33,092 nucleotides of DNA from Victivallales bacterium (GTDB lineage Bacteria > Verrucomicrobiota > Lentisphaeria > Oligosphaerales > Oligosphaeraceae). A program made the translations under genes and the position numbers. The notes beneath the pieces are model-generated. The model was not told the origin of the DNA. It saw nothing but the letters and a program-made list of their open reading frames with translations, and made no database searches. Of this stretch, positions 7,406 through 33,090 are shown piece by piece. The stretch spans positions 1 to 33,092 of the forward strand of contig JAFRLI010000304.1 in assembly GCA_017431255.1 (NCBI GenBank), in the 5' to 3' direction. Numbering within the stretch: position 1 is the stretch's first letter; every line of letters starts with the position of its first letter.

Positions 7406-10400
7406 ATGGACACCGCTACGGACATCAAGCCTGCAGGCTACGAATACCTCCAACTGTGCGGCAAAGGCCGCTACGGGGAGGTCTGGCTTGCCAATGAACT
7501 GCCTGCAGGCAACCGCGTGGTCCTGAAAATCATCCGCAAGAATGCGGAGAACGAGGAATGGCGCACCGAACTCGAAGGCCTGCGAACCTACTGCGCCACC
7601 CTCGCGAAGATGTCCCCGGATGAACGACAGCACCTCGTCTCTATTCTCCATAACGGTGAAAACGAGCACTGCTTCTATTACACGATGGAACCGGCGGACA
7701 ATCTTTCCCCGCTCCCCGGCAAATACCTCGCCAGCACCCTCGCCACACGAATGCAGGACCATCGCCTCGAATACCCTGAAATCGTGCACATCGCCCAGGA
7801 AATCCTGCAGGCACTTGTCGTACTGCGGCAGCACAACATCGTCCATCGCGACATCAAGCCAGAGAACATCTTCTTCTTCCAGGGAACCGCTCGCCTGGGC
7901 GACATCGGTCTGCTAGCAACTCAGGCCGACCACATCGACCTTCTTGGCACCCCCGCATTCGTTCCGCCGGAACTCTTCCAGAACGCCGACACCCTCCCCA
8001 TCCAGGGCGGCGAATGGGACCTCTACGCCCTCGGAAAAGTCCTCTATTCCATGGACACGGGTCTCTACCCGGACAACTATCCCCTCACGAACAACACCAA
8101 TCCGCGTCCCGAACTCCCCACGCTCGTCAATCTCTGGACCCGGATGGCCGCCGAAAAACGTTCCGAGCGTTTGAACGACATCCAGACCATCCAGACGGAA
8201 CTCGACGCCATCGCGAACTCCCTCGCCCCACGTCCCCGCCGCTTGCGACGCTCCCTTCTCTACGGCGCAATCGCAGTTGTTCTGCTCTGTCTGCTGGGCA
8301 CGCATCTCTTTTTCCGTTTCACCAGACGTCACCACGTCTACAATAGCCTTCTGGAAGCCATCGAAGCCAATGACCCCGCTGGTGTCTCCGCACGCCTCAA
8401 ACAAGGGGATTCCCCCAGAACTCCAAATCCCGACGGTTCCTCCCCGCTCTCCGTTGCACTCCACATCCCAGGAATCTCACCCGCCATCGTGCAGGAACTG
8501 ATTGCTCGCGGAGCCTATCTCCAAATTGACCCCAATGCTCCCGACGGGGCCCTGCCCACCGCCATTCGCCTCCGTCAACACCCGCAAATCATTCATTCTC
8601 TCCTCCTCGATACCCCGCGGCTGGATGAACTCCTCGCAACGCCAGGATGTCCCCTCCTGTTCGCCGCCATCGACGCCCACAATCCCGATGTGCTCAGGCA
8701 ACTCCTCGAAAAGTCCTCCGCCCAAATGCCAGACGAGGCCGGACGCACCCCGCTCATGCTCGCACTCTTCCGCCGTGAACATGACCTCGCACATCTCCTT
8801 CTGGAACACGGTGCTGACCCCAATGCCGTGGATTCCGCAGGACTCGGTCCCCTTCACTGCATTCGTAACGACGATCCTGCCATCGTCCAGGAACTCCTCA
8901 AACGCGGCGCCGACCTGCACCACCACGCACAGGATGGAACCACGCCTCTTCTGGCAACCGTCCGTGCCAAACTTCATTCCCCCGATGGCCCTCGCGTCAT
9001 TCGTGCCCTCCTGGAAGCGGGCGCAAAGGCAGATGAGTGCGACGCGCAGCACATCACCCCGCTCCACGAAGCCATCGCCCTGGGTTCGCGCGATGTCGCT
9101 GAACTGCTTCTTCAGAATGGGGCCAACCTGGAGGCACGCACCACGCGCGGCTTTACCCCTCTTCATATCGCCGTGCTCTACCGGCGTGAAGACCTCTGCC
9201 AATGGCTCCTGGAACGCGGCTGCTCCGTGGCCGCAACGGATGTCGCCGGCCGAACTCCCTTGCATCTTGCAGCCTTCCGAAATCTTCCCAATATCGTGAA
9301 AATCCTGCTTCAGGCATCCGCAATTCCAGAGGCAAAAGACAAACTCGCGCTCACGCCCGCCGACCTGGCCTTCATCTCCTCCGCAAAGGACGCCCTTGAA
9401 CTCCTGCCTCCTCCCCAAGACAAATCCGACCTCTCCCAACGCTATCGCCTCCTCCTCAATCAATTCTCCTTGCGACGGGCTCCCATCTCTCCCGAACAAC
9501 GACAGCGCCTCCTGACCGCCATCACCGCAAAGGAACTCAATCGCAGCGAAATCCTTATGGCTCTCGATGGTGCTCCCGACCTCAATCCCGTCAAACCCGA
9601 CGACCCTGACTTCGTGCGTCTTGCAGTCGACACGGGACAACTCACCATTCTTCGCTCCGTCCTCGCCTCCTATCCCAAACTCGACATCCTTGGAAAAGAC
9701 GGTCTTTCCCCCCTGCAGGCCGCTGCCCGTTCCGGTCGCGTCGACCTCTGCGAAACCCTCTGCGCCGCAGGTGCTCAGACAAACATCCACCAGGGACTCC
9801 CAGACTGGCTTGACGCCGCAATCCAGGCAAAGCAACCCCGCACTGCCTATTTCGCCGTCTACAGTCTCCCCGACCTGCTCGATTCCCCCTGTCCTGAACC
9901 TCTCAGCAAGGCACTCCCCTTTGCACTCACGGGAATCAACCAGAAATGGTCCCCCAATTCCCACGCACCTCACCCCATCCTCGAAACCTGGAAACGACAG
10001 GGAATCTTTGACGAATGGGACTTCGCACGCGTCAAGTGCCTTCGCCTCAATACCACGGCCGTGCGACGTGCGCTGGAACGCGGTTTCATCTCTCCCAATC
10101 TCGAGCGTTCTCCTGGAGAGCCCCTCCTCGCCGACCGCAAAATCCTCCATCCTATGATGTTCACACTCCTCCATAACGGCGCACAGCCAAATCTCTCCGG
10201 AATCGACGGAAATACCCCGCTCCTCGCCGCTATCCATGCGCGGCGGCAGTTCTATATCCTCAAACTCCTCCTCGACTTCGGCGCAGACCCCACATTCACT
10301 CCCCCGAATGGAAAATCCGCCATCGACTGCGCAAAAACCTACGGCATCAACGCACAAAACCTTATGCGATTCTACATCGGCCAAAAGGACCTTCCCAAAG

Positions 10401-10408
10401 ACCGATAA
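7406..10408 (+). CDS. Membrane Ser/Thr protein kinase with C-terminal ankyrin repeats
   Basis: 1000 residues. The ATG abuts the ettA stop, so translation is probably coupled. Kinase domain about 10-270: glycine loop GKGRYGEV (19-26), Lys41 in VVLKIIRK, catalytic loop HRDIKPEN (147-154), and DIG (166-168) in place of DFG with the metal-binding Asp kept, then a GTPAFVPPE activation/P+1 segment. The basic stretch RPRRLRRS precedes one transmembrane helix at about 284-303 (LLYGAIAVVLLCLLG). From about 340 on there are many ankyrin repeats (for example AGRTPLMLALFRREHDLAHLLLEHGADPN), dense at 340-660 with further units near 755-790 and 930-985. The kinase must be cytoplasmic, so the single helix would put the ankyrin region outside the cytoplasmic membrane, perhaps as a ligand-sensing ectodomain. 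Substrate unknown; EttA or ribosome-related targets are possible from context only. Bounded by the hairpin at 10416-10441. Confidence 0.88.
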   Translation: MDTATDIKPAGYEYLQLCGKGRYGEVWLANELPAGNRVVLKIIRKNAENEEWRTELEGLRTYCATLAKMSPDERQHLVSILHNGENEHCFYYTMEPADNLSPLPGKYLASTLATRMQDHRLEYPEIVHIAQEILQALVVLRQHNIVHRDIKPENIFFFQGTARLGDIGLLATQADHIDLLGTPAFVPPELFQNADTLPIQGGEWDLYALGKVLYSMDTGLYPDNYPLTNNTNPRPELPTLVNLWTRMAAEKRSERLNDIQTIQTELDAIANSLAPRPRRLRRSLLYGAIAVVLLCLLGTHLFFRFTRRHHVYNSLLEAIEANDPAGVSARLKQGDSPRTPNPDGSSPLSVALHIPGISPAIVQELIARGAYLQIDPNAPDGALPTAIRLRQHPQIIHSLLLDTPRLDELLATPGCPLLFAAIDAHNPDVLRQLLEKSSAQMPDEAGRTPLMLALFRREHDLAHLLLEHGADPNAVDSAGLGPLHCIRNDDPAIVQELLKRGADLHHHAQDGTTPLLATVRAKLHSPDGPRVIRALLEAGAKADECDAQHITPLHEAIALGSRDVAELLLQNGANLEARTTRGFTPLHIAVLYRREDLCQWLLERGCSVAATDVAGRTPLHLAAFRNLPNIVKILLQASAIPEAKDKLALTPADLAFISSAKDALELLPPPQDKSDLSQRYRLLLNQFSLRRAPISPEQRQRLLTAITAKELNRSEILMALDGAPDLNPVKPDDPDFVRLAVDTGQLTILRSVLASYPKLDILGKDGLSPLQAAARSGRVDLCETLCAAGAQTNIHQGLPDWLDAAIQAKQPRTAYFAVYSLPDLLDSPCPEPLSKALPFALTGINQKWSPNSHAPHPILETWKRQGIFDEWDFARVKCLRLNTTAVRRALERGFISPNLERSPGEPLLADRKILHPMMFTLLHNGAQPNLSGIDGNTPLLAAIHARRQFYILKLLLDFGADPTFTPPNGKSAIDCAKTYGINAQNLMRFYIGQKDLPKDR

Positions 10409-11840: not shown

Positions 11841-11962
11841 TTCCCCTTTTCCTATGAAATGTAGCCCACTGAAACCGCAGGGGGAGATTCTCAAAATAGT
11901 CATTTCGTATCTCAAAAAGGTAGTGTTAACTGGTACTTCTTGCAGTATTTGGACAAAAATGC

Positions 11963-11991
11963 TTGACAAGGACCTTGACAAGTGCGATATT
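11963..11991 (+). promoter_or_regulatory. Promoter-like leader of the CRISPR-like array
   Basis: TTGACA (11963-11968) and GATATT (11986-11991) with a 17-bp spacer; a second TTGACA lies at 11975-11980. The implied start near 11998 is about 20 nt ahead of the first repeat at 12019. The preceding 100 bp is A+T-richer than its surroundings, as expected of a CRISPR leader. Confidence 0.5.
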
Positions 11992-12018
11992 AGGGCCGGT
12001 ACCCACCAGGGCGGGGGA

Positions 12019-12592
12019 CCATCCTCCCCGCGCGCGTGAGACGTGCCCGTGCGCGAGAGCGGCACTGACAACTTCTTGTCATCCTCCCCGCGCGCGTGAG
12101 ACGTGCGTTCCTTGTCGTATGAGATGGAGTCGCGGTGCCGTCATCCTCCCTGCGCGCGTGAGACGTGCCGTATGACAATCTTGCGCCGATAATAGAGAGA
12201 CGTCATCCTCCCCGCGCGCGTGAGATGTGCGATCTACTATCTTCCCCGAAACCCAACCTGCAATCATCCTCCCCGCGCGCGTGAGACGTGCCTTCAGAGC
12301 CTGGGACCGCTGGGAGTGGTGATGTATGCTACCCGCGCGCGTGAGACGTGCCGCCGGAGAAGGACGAATGAGGATGGACGTTTTCATCCACCTCGCGCGC
12401 GAGGCGTGTCGGGTGGTGAGCGTTTTTGGGGGGTGCCCAGCACCGCATCCATCCCGCACGCGAGGCGTGTCGGGTGGTGAGCGTTTCGGGGGGCTGCCCA
12501 GCACCGCATCCATCCCACGCGTGAGAGATGTGCCGGAGGCCGAGGGCATCAGCTCCGAGCAGGACGCATCCACCTCGCGCGTTCCCGTCCCG
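12019..12592 (+). CRISPR. Orphan CRISPR-like array with a degenerate distal half
   Basis: About ten repeat units at a spacing of 59-62 bp. Units 1-5 (starting near 12019, 12079, 12141, 12203, 12264) share a 28-nt repeat beginning TCATCCTCCCCG and ending GCGCGTGAGACGTGC with at most one or two substitutions; spacers of 32-34 nt between them are all different. Unit 6 (12324-12351) keeps the 3' 20 nt. Units 7-10 (near 12384, 12446, 12506, 12566) diverge to forms such as CGCGAGGCGTGTC. Repeat length, G+C-rich centre and 60-61-bp period fit type I-E-like arrays. A promoter-like leader precedes unit 1 and the decay lies at the far end, as expected of a trailer. No cas gene occurs in the window. Open frames across it (for example LTRAGRM-like repeats) are by-products. 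Confidence 0.68.
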
Positions 12593-23535: not shown

Positions 23536-24960
23536 ATGATGGTAGGTCGAGAGAAAGAACGTGATATGCTGGAGCGTGCGCTTCGGAGTGAGAACTCGGA
23601 GTTTGTAGCGGTATATGGTCGTCGTCGCATAGGGAAGACGTATTTAATCCGGGAGACGTTTCATTCTCGATTCACGTTTCAGCATTCAGGCATTGCGAAT
23701 GCAAACACACAGATTCAGCAGGAGCGGTTTCGTCAGTCTCTCATAGAGGCAGGGCACGTAAAATGTCCTGTTTTGCGCACTTGGTTTCAGGCGTTTGACG
23801 AATTGAAGGAACTGTTGAAAGCGTCACCTGCGAACAAGAAGATTTTGTTCATAGACGAAATGCCGTGGATGGACAAGCCGAATGCCAATTTTCTTCCAGC
23901 ACTGGAGAATTTCTGGAATGCGTGGGCTTCGGATAGGAAAGACGTTCTGTTGATTATCTGCGGTTCTGCGACCTCATGGATGTTGAAGAATATGATTCAC
24001 GCGCGAGGCGGGCTTCACAATCGTGTCACGATGCGAATCCATTTGAATCCGTTTACGCTGGCGGAATGTGAAAAGATGGCGGTCAATTTGGGGTTAGAAG
24101 TCTCGCGATATCAGCTGTTGCAGTATTATATGGCGTTGGGAGGGGTTCCATTTTACTGGACATTTCTGCAGCGTGGCTTGAGTGTTGCGCAAAATATGGA
24201 CGCATTGTTTTTTTTGTCCAATGCCAATTTGGAAGGAGAGTTTCAGGATTTGTATTCGTCCTTGTTTTCCAAGGAGGCTCCTTATATTCAAATCGTTTCG
24301 GCGCTAGGGAAAAAGCGGATGGGAATGAACCGTGAAGAGATTGCGGCGGAAACTGGCATCGCGACTTCAGGAACGCTGACGAAATATCTGGAAGAACTGC
24401 AACAATGTGGATTCCTGCGGAAGTACCATCTTCCTGGAAAGAACATTCGGGATGCCATATATCAGTTGATTGACAACTATACCCTCTTTTATTTCCGTTT
24501 CATTCGCGATAATACTGCGCAAGACCCTCATTTCTGGACATCATCCGTGGACACCAGTCGTTTCCGCACTTGGCAAGGGCTTGCCTTCGAACTGGTTTGC
24601 CTCCAACACGTGGATAATATCCGCAATGCTCTCCAAATCAGTGGCATGCAATCTGCCGTCTATGCCTGGCAGGCAAGCGCTACTTCGAAAACAGGCGGTG
24701 CCCAAATTGATCTTGTCATTGATCGCAAGGACGGCGTCATCAATCTTTGTGAAATGAAATACGCGGCTGACAAATATGCCATCACCGCCAAGGACAACAC
24801 TGCTTTGATGCAAAAAAAAGAGGCATTTCTACAGCAAATGCCACGTCGCAAGGCCTGCCATATTACAATGGTCACAACATTCGGACTGGTCCACAACGCC
24901 TATTGGAACAATGTTCAATCCGAAATTACACTCAATGACCTATTCAAGGAGCTGAGGTAA
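23536..24960 (+). CDS. Archaeal-type ATPase with C-terminal DUF234/PD-(D/E)XK-like domain
   Basis: 474 residues; ATG at 23536 or 23539, with GGAG about 8 nt upstream. Opens with VGREKERDMLERAL, typical of the archaeal ATPase family (PF01637). Walker A GRRRIGKT 28-35; Walker B ILFIDEMPW around 103-111 with catalytic-type Glu108. A winged-helix segment follows at about 250-330 (GMNREEIAAETGIATSGTLTKYLEELQQCGFL). The C-terminal domain has Asp392 ... Glu406-x-Lys408 (QIDLVID, CEMKYA), the D...ExK pattern of restriction-endonuclease-like folds found with DUF234. Role of these ATPases is not known; links to toxin or defence and mobile cassettes have been suggested. Codon usage is less C-ending than the neighbours, especially up to about 24450, and the gene is bracketed by repeats, which points to horizontal transfer. 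Its stop codon lies inside the element at 24950-25109. Confidence 0.85.
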   Translation: MMVGREKERDMLERALRSENSEFVAVYGRRRIGKTYLIRETFHSRFTFQHSGIANANTQIQQERFRQSLIEAGHVKCPVLRTWFQAFDELKELLKASPANKKILFIDEMPWMDKPNANFLPALENFWNAWASDRKDVLLIICGSATSWMLKNMIHARGGLHNRVTMRIHLNPFTLAECEKMAVNLGLEVSRYQLLQYYMALGGVPFYWTFLQRGLSVAQNMDALFFLSNANLEGEFQDLYSSLFSKEAPYIQIVSALGKKRMGMNREEIAAETGIATSGTLTKYLEELQQCGFLRKYHLPGKNIRDAIYQLIDNYTLFYFRFIRDNTAQDPHFWTSSVDTSRFRTWQGLAFELVCLQHVDNIRNALQISGMQSAVYAWQASATSKTGGAQIDLVIDRKDGVINLCEMKYAADKYAITAKDNTALMQKKEAFLQQMPRRKACHITMVTTFGLVHNAYWNNVQSEITLNDLFKELR

Positions 24961-31511: not shown

Positions 31512-32318
31512 TTAGAGTTTCTGGTAGATACCGCCGGCGTGTCCGAAGTGGTTCACAGTATTGAAGCCACTGCGGAGTTCGCCTGCGAGGTTGGTGTTGA
31601 CGTGACCATCGAACCAGCCCACGTTAGCCTTGTCGCCATGGCGAAGACCGACCGCATAGTGCTTGCTAGTGTCAAAGGAACTGTAGCGATAGACGATTTG
31701 GCTGCGCTGATAACCAACATATTCGGGGGTGGTGCAAGCCGTGAGTACCATGGAGTCGCCGATCAGTTGCGTATCGGACGGGCGCTTCATCATAGAGGCA
31801 ACCCAGACCATACCGCGTTCCTTTCCGTCTGACGGATTGTTGATTTTGATCCAAAATTTACCACCAATTTCATCCTTGGGGCTGAAGGCGTGTGCATACA
31901 TGCCATAGCAGAAGTAGCGGTATTTGCCAGTATCGCAACCGACAGGCATTCGGTCGGGAGTGGTGGGGCAGAAGAGGGTCGGAGGGCACTGAGTGGTATT
32001 CGTATATCCCTCGCGACGGTCACGCATTGCGATGGTTTCCATATACTTTGGACCGCCATTGTAGCCGACCATCGTGTCGAGGTAAGTCAAGGACGCGCCA
32101 TAGTCTGCGCGTGGCATAGTCACGCCAGGCATCATGTTCGGGAAGTCGGATTCGTAGAAGGAATTGGCAAGGATGTACTGCTTCAGGTTGTTGATGCATG
32201 ATGTGGTGCGTGCCTTTTCGCGTGCCTTCGCCAGCGCAGGCAAGAGCATCGCCGCCAAAATCGCAATGATCGCTATGACCACCAGTAACTCAATCAGGGT
32301 GAACTCTTTCTGTTTCAT
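31512..32318 (-). CDS. Pseudopilin-like protein, H-x9-DG type
   Basis: 268 residues; on the minus strand GAAGGA lies about 8 nt ahead of the ATG at 32318. MKQKE precedes the prepilin motif [15 protein letters not shown], so the residue before cleavage is Glu. The first 32 residues after it equal those of the pseudopilins at 13010 and 25225, while the rest is unrelated in detail. [12 protein letters not shown] is a perfect H-x9-DG motif near residue 240. The middle holds paired Cys ([15 protein letters not shown]). Expected inner-membrane protein exposed outside after processing. Monocistronic, with an A+T-rich upstream region and its own terminator. Its 3' half is duplicated 1081 bp to the right. 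Confidence 0.87.
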
Positions 32319-32517: not shown

Positions 32518-32928
32518 AGGCATTCCTACATAAACAAACGGACTCCAAGGTTGCCTGGAGTCCGTTTGTCGCGTGTAAGGGAAATGCCAGAATTAGAGTT
32601 TCTGGTAGATGCCGCCAGCGTGTCCGAAGTGGTTGCAGTAGTTGGCGCAACTGCGGAGTTCGCTTGCGAGGTTGGTGTTGACGTGACCATCGAACCAGCC
32701 CACGTTAGCCTTGTCGCCATGGCGAAGACCGACCGCATAGTTCTTGCTAGTGTCAAAGGAATTGTAGCGATAGACGATTTGGCTGCGCTGATAACCAACA
32801 TATTCGGGGGTGGTGCAAGCCGTGAGTACCATGGAGTCGCCGATGAGTTGCGTATCGGACGGGCGCTTCAGCAGAGAGGCAACCCAGACCATACCGCGTT
32901 CCTTTCCATCTGACGGATTGTTGATTTT
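32485..32928 (-). repeat. Long direct repeat, unit B
   Basis: Second copy of 31404-31847. Identity stops abruptly at 32928, where the sequence changes to an ABC-transporter ATPase-like reading frame. Confidence 0.9.
32535..32568 (-). terminator. Terminator copy in unit B
   Basis: CAAACGGACTCCA (32535-32547) pairs with TGGAGTCCGTTTG (32556-32568), identical to the hairpin at 31454-31487. Confidence 0.7.
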
Positions 32929-33090
32929 AAGTTCTTTTCCGTTCAGGCGAACGGATCCGGATTCTCTTCGTCTGCCTCCGAAAACGGTTTTGCAAAATTC
33001 CGTTTTGCCTGCGCCTACAAGTCCGTCAATTCCTACTATCTCGCCTTTTCTTACCGTGATCGATGCATCTTTGACCATACCTTCTGCATC
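32593..33090 (-). CDS. Chimeric frame: sugar ABC-transporter ATPase fragment joined to a pseudopilin C terminus (5'-truncated)
   Basis: The frame is open to the right edge of the window, so the ATG at 33078 is unlikely to be the true start. The first 55 or so residues (VKDASITVRKGEIVGIDGL, then VGAGKTEFCKTVFGGRR and GSVRLNGKEL) match the second ABC domain of RbsA/MglA-type sugar importer ATPases, with the family's G-L-V-G-A-G-K-T-E Walker A. From [12 protein letters not shown] on, the sequence is the C-terminal half of the pseudopilin encoded at 31512, including its H-x9-DG motif and the final YQKL. The two parts meet at a 20-nt stretch, AAAATCAACAATCCGTCAGA, present in the pseudopilin gene. 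The ABC part uses A-ending codons unlike the rest of the window. A working ABC ATPase is not encoded. Either recombination or an assembly join. Confidence 0.7.
   Translation of the reverse strand, partial: DAEGMVKDASITVRKGEIVGIDGLVGAGKTEFCKTVFGGRRRESGSVRLNGKELKINNPSDGKERGMVWVASLLKRPSDTQLIGDSMVLTACTTPEYVGYQRSQIVYRYNSFDTSKNYAVGLRHGDKANVGWFDGHVNTNLASELRSCANYCNHFGHAGGIYQKL

Follow-up and report, generated by a model that had tools for sequence, protein, structure and literature searches.

The window, the whole 33,092-nucleotide stretch of DNA analyzed here, lies in a draft genome of 3.54 Mb that is divided among 352 contigs and is 89.8% complete. An array of ten 28-nt repeats with nine 32- to 34-nt spacers occupies positions 12019-12580 and has an aldo/keto reductase gene on one side and a DUF1559/prepilin-like gene on the other. 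A leader precedes the array. No cas gene was found among the window genes examined, in agreement with the earlier note on this DNA. Elsewhere in the window, 7406-10408 (+) encodes a protein of 1000 residues that has a Ser/Thr protein kinase domain at its N terminus and ankyrin repeats at its C terminus, and 23536-24960 (+) encodes an AAA ATPase with a full-length match to the PADLOC phage-defence candidate PDC-S27 (E 6e-194). The leader and array consist of the following features.

11850-12018 (+), leader, delimited by alignment A1 and the sequence-only model R1; left boundary approximate
11963-11991 (+), promoter in the leader, TTGACA-17 nt-GATATT, reads into the array
11998-12020 (+), GGTACCCACCAGGGCGGGGGACC, stem-loop at the leader-repeat junction; most conserved leader block
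12019-12046 (+), repeat 1, leader-proximal
12047-12078 (+), spacer 1
12079-12106 (+), repeat 2
12107-12140 (+), spacer 2
12141-12168 (+), repeat 3
12169-12202 (+), spacer 3
12203-12230 (+), repeat 4
12231-12263 (+), spacer 4
12264-12291 (+), repeat 5
12292-12323 (+), spacer 5
12324-12351 (+), repeat 6, 5' end diverged
12352-12383 (+), spacer 6
12384-12411 (+), repeat 7, diverged
12412-12444 (+), spacer 7, near-identical to spacer 8
12445-12472 (+), repeat 8, diverged
12473-12505 (+), spacer 8, near-identical to spacer 7
12506-12533 (+), repeat 9, diverged
12534-12565 (+), spacer 9, match in a relative's MoxR-type ATPase gene
12566-12580 (+), repeat 10, truncated, array end

The repeat starts are separated by periods of 60, 62, 62, 61, 60, 60, 61, 61, and 60 bp. 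Repeats 1-5 are nearly identical, divergence grows over repeats 6-10, and repeat 10 is cut off at ~12580. This bears out the five well-kept repeats and decaying later units of the earlier note, whose five spacers are all in place and are followed by four more. The promoter-like character that it ascribed to the leader also holds, since the window promoter is sigma-70-like and agrees with the consensus at 10 of 12 positions. A genome-wide search for the repeat with up to three mismatches returned six occurrences, all in the window array, and the reversed control pattern returned none. The window array is therefore not a chance pattern.

The leader is not confined to the window. A BLAST search of the genome first showed it elsewhere, and a pattern search located 14 leader-repeat junctions at two or fewer mismatches. 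Model R1, built from the 16 aligned leaders of A1 on sequence alone, matches 34 places in this genome, which correspond to 32 leaders and two 5' fragments; these counts are a lower bound because the first pass scored 61 of 743 candidates, and more places may exist. Three leader subfamilies were distinguished by inspection: I (n = 19, including the window array), II (n = 10), and III (n = 3). The leaders L168 (contig C315) and L166 (C200) belong to the third and most diverged subfamily, and C315 has a longer stretch between the -10 box and the repeat. Every leader with an assembled 3' end joins a first repeat directly and often an array. Many arrays of the family lie at or near contig ends; C108 carries a further array and ends before any leader position. 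Tandem units with two leaders each are found on C133, C189, C232, C265, and C315, and on C7 an upstream trailer precedes the leader, which marks another tandem unit. A search of 47 other genomes of the order with the leader model, which could miss weak relatives, found the leader in none of them, and leader and promoter patterns had no match in GTDB genome contigs or IMG/VR.

The units share a common anatomy. The leader is ~170 bp long and begins with a conserved block, TTCTCAAAATAG...TATCTCAGAAA.TTAGT, followed by the promoter, TTGA(C/A)A-17-GATATT, and a stretch capable of forming a stem-loop. TTGA, CTTGACA, and CGATAT are nearly invariant in the 16 aligned leader copies. This last stretch reads GGTACCCACC(A/T)GGG(C/T)GGGGGACC in subfamily I and CCCCCACCC(A/T)GGG(C/T)GGGGGG in subfamily II, and it joins the first repeat directly. 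In the larger arrays the first repeat is followed by up to ten more ~28-nt repeats with ~33-nt spacers between them. The repeats have a common 5' box (CCATCC[A/T]CCCC, CCTCCTTCCC or CCTCTTCCCC). They also share a CG-alternating core, and their 3' part differs array by array. The trailer consists of the last repeat plus GGGGGG.TGTTTCGTGCGTTGTGTT and is partly conserved in several copies; it has an imperfect inverted match to the left end of the leader.

Repeat conservation follows the distance from the leader. Identity to the array consensus is 0.95 for first repeats, 0.89 for middle repeats, and 0.80 for last repeats, and within subfamily I the repeats of different arrays are 94% alike at the first position and 70% alike at later ones. 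Growth at the leader end predicts this order, with the first repeats kept best and the last worst, as in CRISPR arrays. Overall repeat identity is 81% within arrays and 44% between arrays.

The earlier note had remarked that a period of about 61 bp fits type I-E-like systems, and the family agrees with that size. The exact 61-bp period (28 + 33) accounts for 31 of 70 periods over all arrays and, once arrays with duplicated spacers are excluded, for 19 of 32; several outlying periods lie between 57 and 75. A protein-coding repeat was ruled out because a 61-bp period breaks the reading frame. Spacers were compared pairwise: 149 of 165 within-array pairs are close to shuffled similarity and the other 16 are clear duplicates, and none of 2250 between-array pairs are alike. 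The mean pair score is -6.5 for the 149 non-duplicate pairs within arrays, -7.9 for shuffled pairs, and -7.6 between arrays. Unit duplication with divergence does not give diverse spacers of constant length; capture of measured fragments can. The dissimilarity of the spacers also rules out a decayed minisatellite for most arrays. Duplicated spacers accompany plain unit duplications in C336, C115, and C133, and non-neighboring duplicates occur in C136 (units 2, 4, and 7) and C335 (units 1 and 4). Three separate arrays, at L088, L090, and L092 (C341, C314, and C167), have an expanded GTGGTTAGTGG simple repeat at the first spacer position.

The comparison of spacers with phage and plasmid collections that the earlier note had proposed gave no convincing match. 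The phage collection returned a single match, between spacer 9 and a Gordonia phage at E 0.9, which was taken as chance. The plasmid collection, queried with a subset of the spacers, returned none, and neither did IMG/VR when searched with codon-degenerate patterns of six spacers. Against the rest of this genome the spacers had no match beyond 18 nt at E 0.2. In related genomes, a spacer of C335 agrees at 28 of 32 nt with a phage-type DNA primase gene (PHROG primases) on a 3.5-kb contig, and three of the four mismatches are synonymous; the E value of 0.003 was obtained for one genome among 198, so chance could give this match and it is not significant alone. The phage-type primase used as an IMG/VR query had no relative there. 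The MoxR gene of a relative agrees with spacer 9 at 27 of 29 nt (E 3e-4, one genome of 198), and this match is weak because the one changed codon alters the amino acid. The G005 match, first read as another dispersed repeat, is this match of spacer 9 to the MoxR gene. The remaining weak spacer matches involve ordinary cellular genes or a low-complexity spacer and look like chance.

The earlier note had left open whether the array is a relic or relies on Cas proteins encoded elsewhere in the genome. That alternative is incomplete, for the array is one of ~32 elements and four cas families were not found in the 89.8%-complete draft. Cas1, Cas7e, and Cas6e were not detected, and the Cas3 search gave 32 bits against a cut-off of 102, a match that is in all likelihood another helicase. 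At this level of completeness the absence of cas genes is not proven. The same Cas1 model matches, weakly, beside the type I-E loci of relatives, so a type I-E Cas1 would probably have been seen here if it were assembled.

The family shares with type I-E arrays a 28-nt repeat plus 33-nt spacer, the resulting 61-bp ruler, a promoter-bearing leader, distal repeat decay, and diverse spacers. It differs in that no cas genes were found, the leader exists in at least 32 copies, the 3' halves of the repeats diverge between arrays, and most repeats lack a stable hairpin. The closest likeness is in C136, the best-kept long array, with ten units. The C136 repeat, CCTCTTCCCCGCGCGCGCATGTGCGCGTG, has CTCTTCCCC at its leader end, as do repeats of relatives, and folds into a 7-bp stem with a 4-nt loop (z -3.2). 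Type I-E repeats of relatives begin with CTCTTCCCC or GTCTTCCCC, and the C136 repeat agrees with one of them at 19 of 28 positions in the forward polarity expected from the leader; none of 300 shuffles was as good. The repeats of other arrays match type I-E repeats less well. The reverse polarity, in which GGACCATCC resembles the reverse complement of the type I-E 3' handle, was not adopted, as the forward polarity suits subfamily II and C136 better and palindromy leaves subfamily I ambiguous. An RNA hairpin is unsupported as a general property of the repeats, which on average fold no better than shuffled sequences (mean z -0.4), and C136 is an exception. Together with the divergence of the 3' halves between arrays, this average does not support Cas6-type processing.

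On balance, the window array appears to belong to a family of orphan, type I-E-sized CRISPR arrays that has multiplied in this genome, and the arrays are probably no longer served by Cas. The array structure, the ruler, the diverse spacers, the leader, and the distal decay all support CRISPR-type growth, and the regularly spaced direct repeats are of a length within the range of about 21-48 nt that defines CRISPR arrays. The lack of detected cas genes, the repeat divergence, and the lack of stable hairpins argue against a working type I-E system. A Cas1-Cas2-type integrase would have recognized the junction of leader and first repeat together with the repeat's 5' half. At that junction it would have inserted captured ~33-bp fragments, presumably of foreign origin, copying the first repeat each time. 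Duplication would then have carried leader-array units to new places and set some of them in tandem. The integrase may since have been lost, or its gene may lie in the tenth of the genome that the draft lacks. Old units would decay distally, with ordinary recombination duplicating some of them, and any present function of the arrays is conjectural.

The main rival to an orphan CRISPR family is a set of STAR-like interspersed intergenic repeats, or "false CRISPRs", which are GC-rich, open with a start signature, carry variable motif copies, and vary through slippage and recombination without capturing spacers. The present elements resemble those described (PMC3532100, PMC5294841) in being dispersed over many places in a genome, GC-rich, and intergenic, with a conserved start, one to several copies, locus-specific spacers, some of them duplicated, and no cas genes. 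STAR-like behavior is seen in the arrays of C336, C115, and C133 and in parts of C138 and C139. This explanation is nevertheless unlikely for the family, because 149 of the 165 within-array spacer pairs are near shuffled similarity while the repeats are 81% alike, and duplication alone gives neither unrelated spacers of constant length nor a decay gradient from the leader to the distal end. According to the published description (PMC5294841), false CRISPRs have no spacer diversity within a locus, unlike most arrays here; C336 would fit that description. The spacers of a STAR locus are 40-44 bp long and for the most part identical or almost identical, whereas those here are mostly unrelated, and the present units have a ~170-bp leader with a promoter. 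By inspection, the STAR signature T[G/A/T]TGTTG[G/T]GGCCC[C/A] (PMC5294841) does not occur in the listed repeats. The earlier note had itself considered a dispersed repeat family without array structure; the units are dispersed, but arrays are present and their spacers differ from place to place.

Three further explanations bear on the machinery and the mode of spread. The second rival is an intact type I-E-like system whose cas operon falls in the ~10% missing from the draft and serves the arrays in trans. The incomplete, fragmented assembly, the position of many arrays at or near contig ends, and the type I-E operons of relatives (Cas7e in 8 of 60) are consistent with it. It is quite unlikely given that none of the four cas families searched scored above cut-off, that between-array differences among the repeats are too large for a single Cas6 and most repeats lack a stable hairpin, and that many arrays are decayed. 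It is very unlikely that a non-Cas integrase builds and keeps the ~30 arrays, recognizing the leader that they share and the repeat's 5' half and capturing 33-bp fragments; this would mean Cas-independent array making, or repeats that act as DNA sites and not as guide-RNA precursors. A miniature transposable (MITE-like) element carrying a minisatellite is highly improbable as the whole explanation: dispersed copies, tandem units in six contigs, and a trailer that is conserved in part and matches the left end of the leader imperfectly in inverted orientation are in its favor, but the copies reveal no consistent right end and no terminal inverted repeat or target duplication, and the diverse spacers of constant length are left unexplained. 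Such an element could be the route by which the units spread.

An orphan array is commonly regarded as a lone relic, and here one genome has ~30 leader-bearing places. The CRISPR2 array of Enterococcus faecalis and the RliB array of Listeria have uniform repeats. In the published accounts (PMC4580645 for CRISPR2, an orphan array, and PMC3886909 for the cas-less RliB), both have no cas genes nearby, like the window array, and are single loci of a species, in contrast to the ~30 places here with a common leader and no common repeat. No description of such an array family was found in the open-licence literature searched. If the orphan-family reading is correct, CRISPR arrays can multiply as units and outlast their machinery, and the conserved versus drifting parts of leader and repeat could tell what an integrase needs. 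Continued spacer gain by the arrays would imply an unknown integrase.

Two other dispersed elements were observed in the genome. A short repeat around GCGGCCTGCAAAACCGACACGC has five copies in the window, at 1207, 12612, 12682, 31419, and 32500; one copy lies directly after the array, and the repeat is also present in other contigs. A second element, approximately CACAGAACACACAGAA...GGCGGATTGC...TTCTGTGTATTCTGTGGACT...AGTTTTGCAA, was found at L081, L088, L157, and L161 (contigs C7, C341, C201, and C153) and often adjoins arrays. At the contig end, the ORF 32593-33078 (-) starts like a sugar ABC-transporter ATPase, and after a shared 15-residue stretch it resembles the C-terminal part of the prepilin-like protein encoded by 31512-32318 (-). 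The contig-end ORF may be an assembly chimera or a product of recombination.
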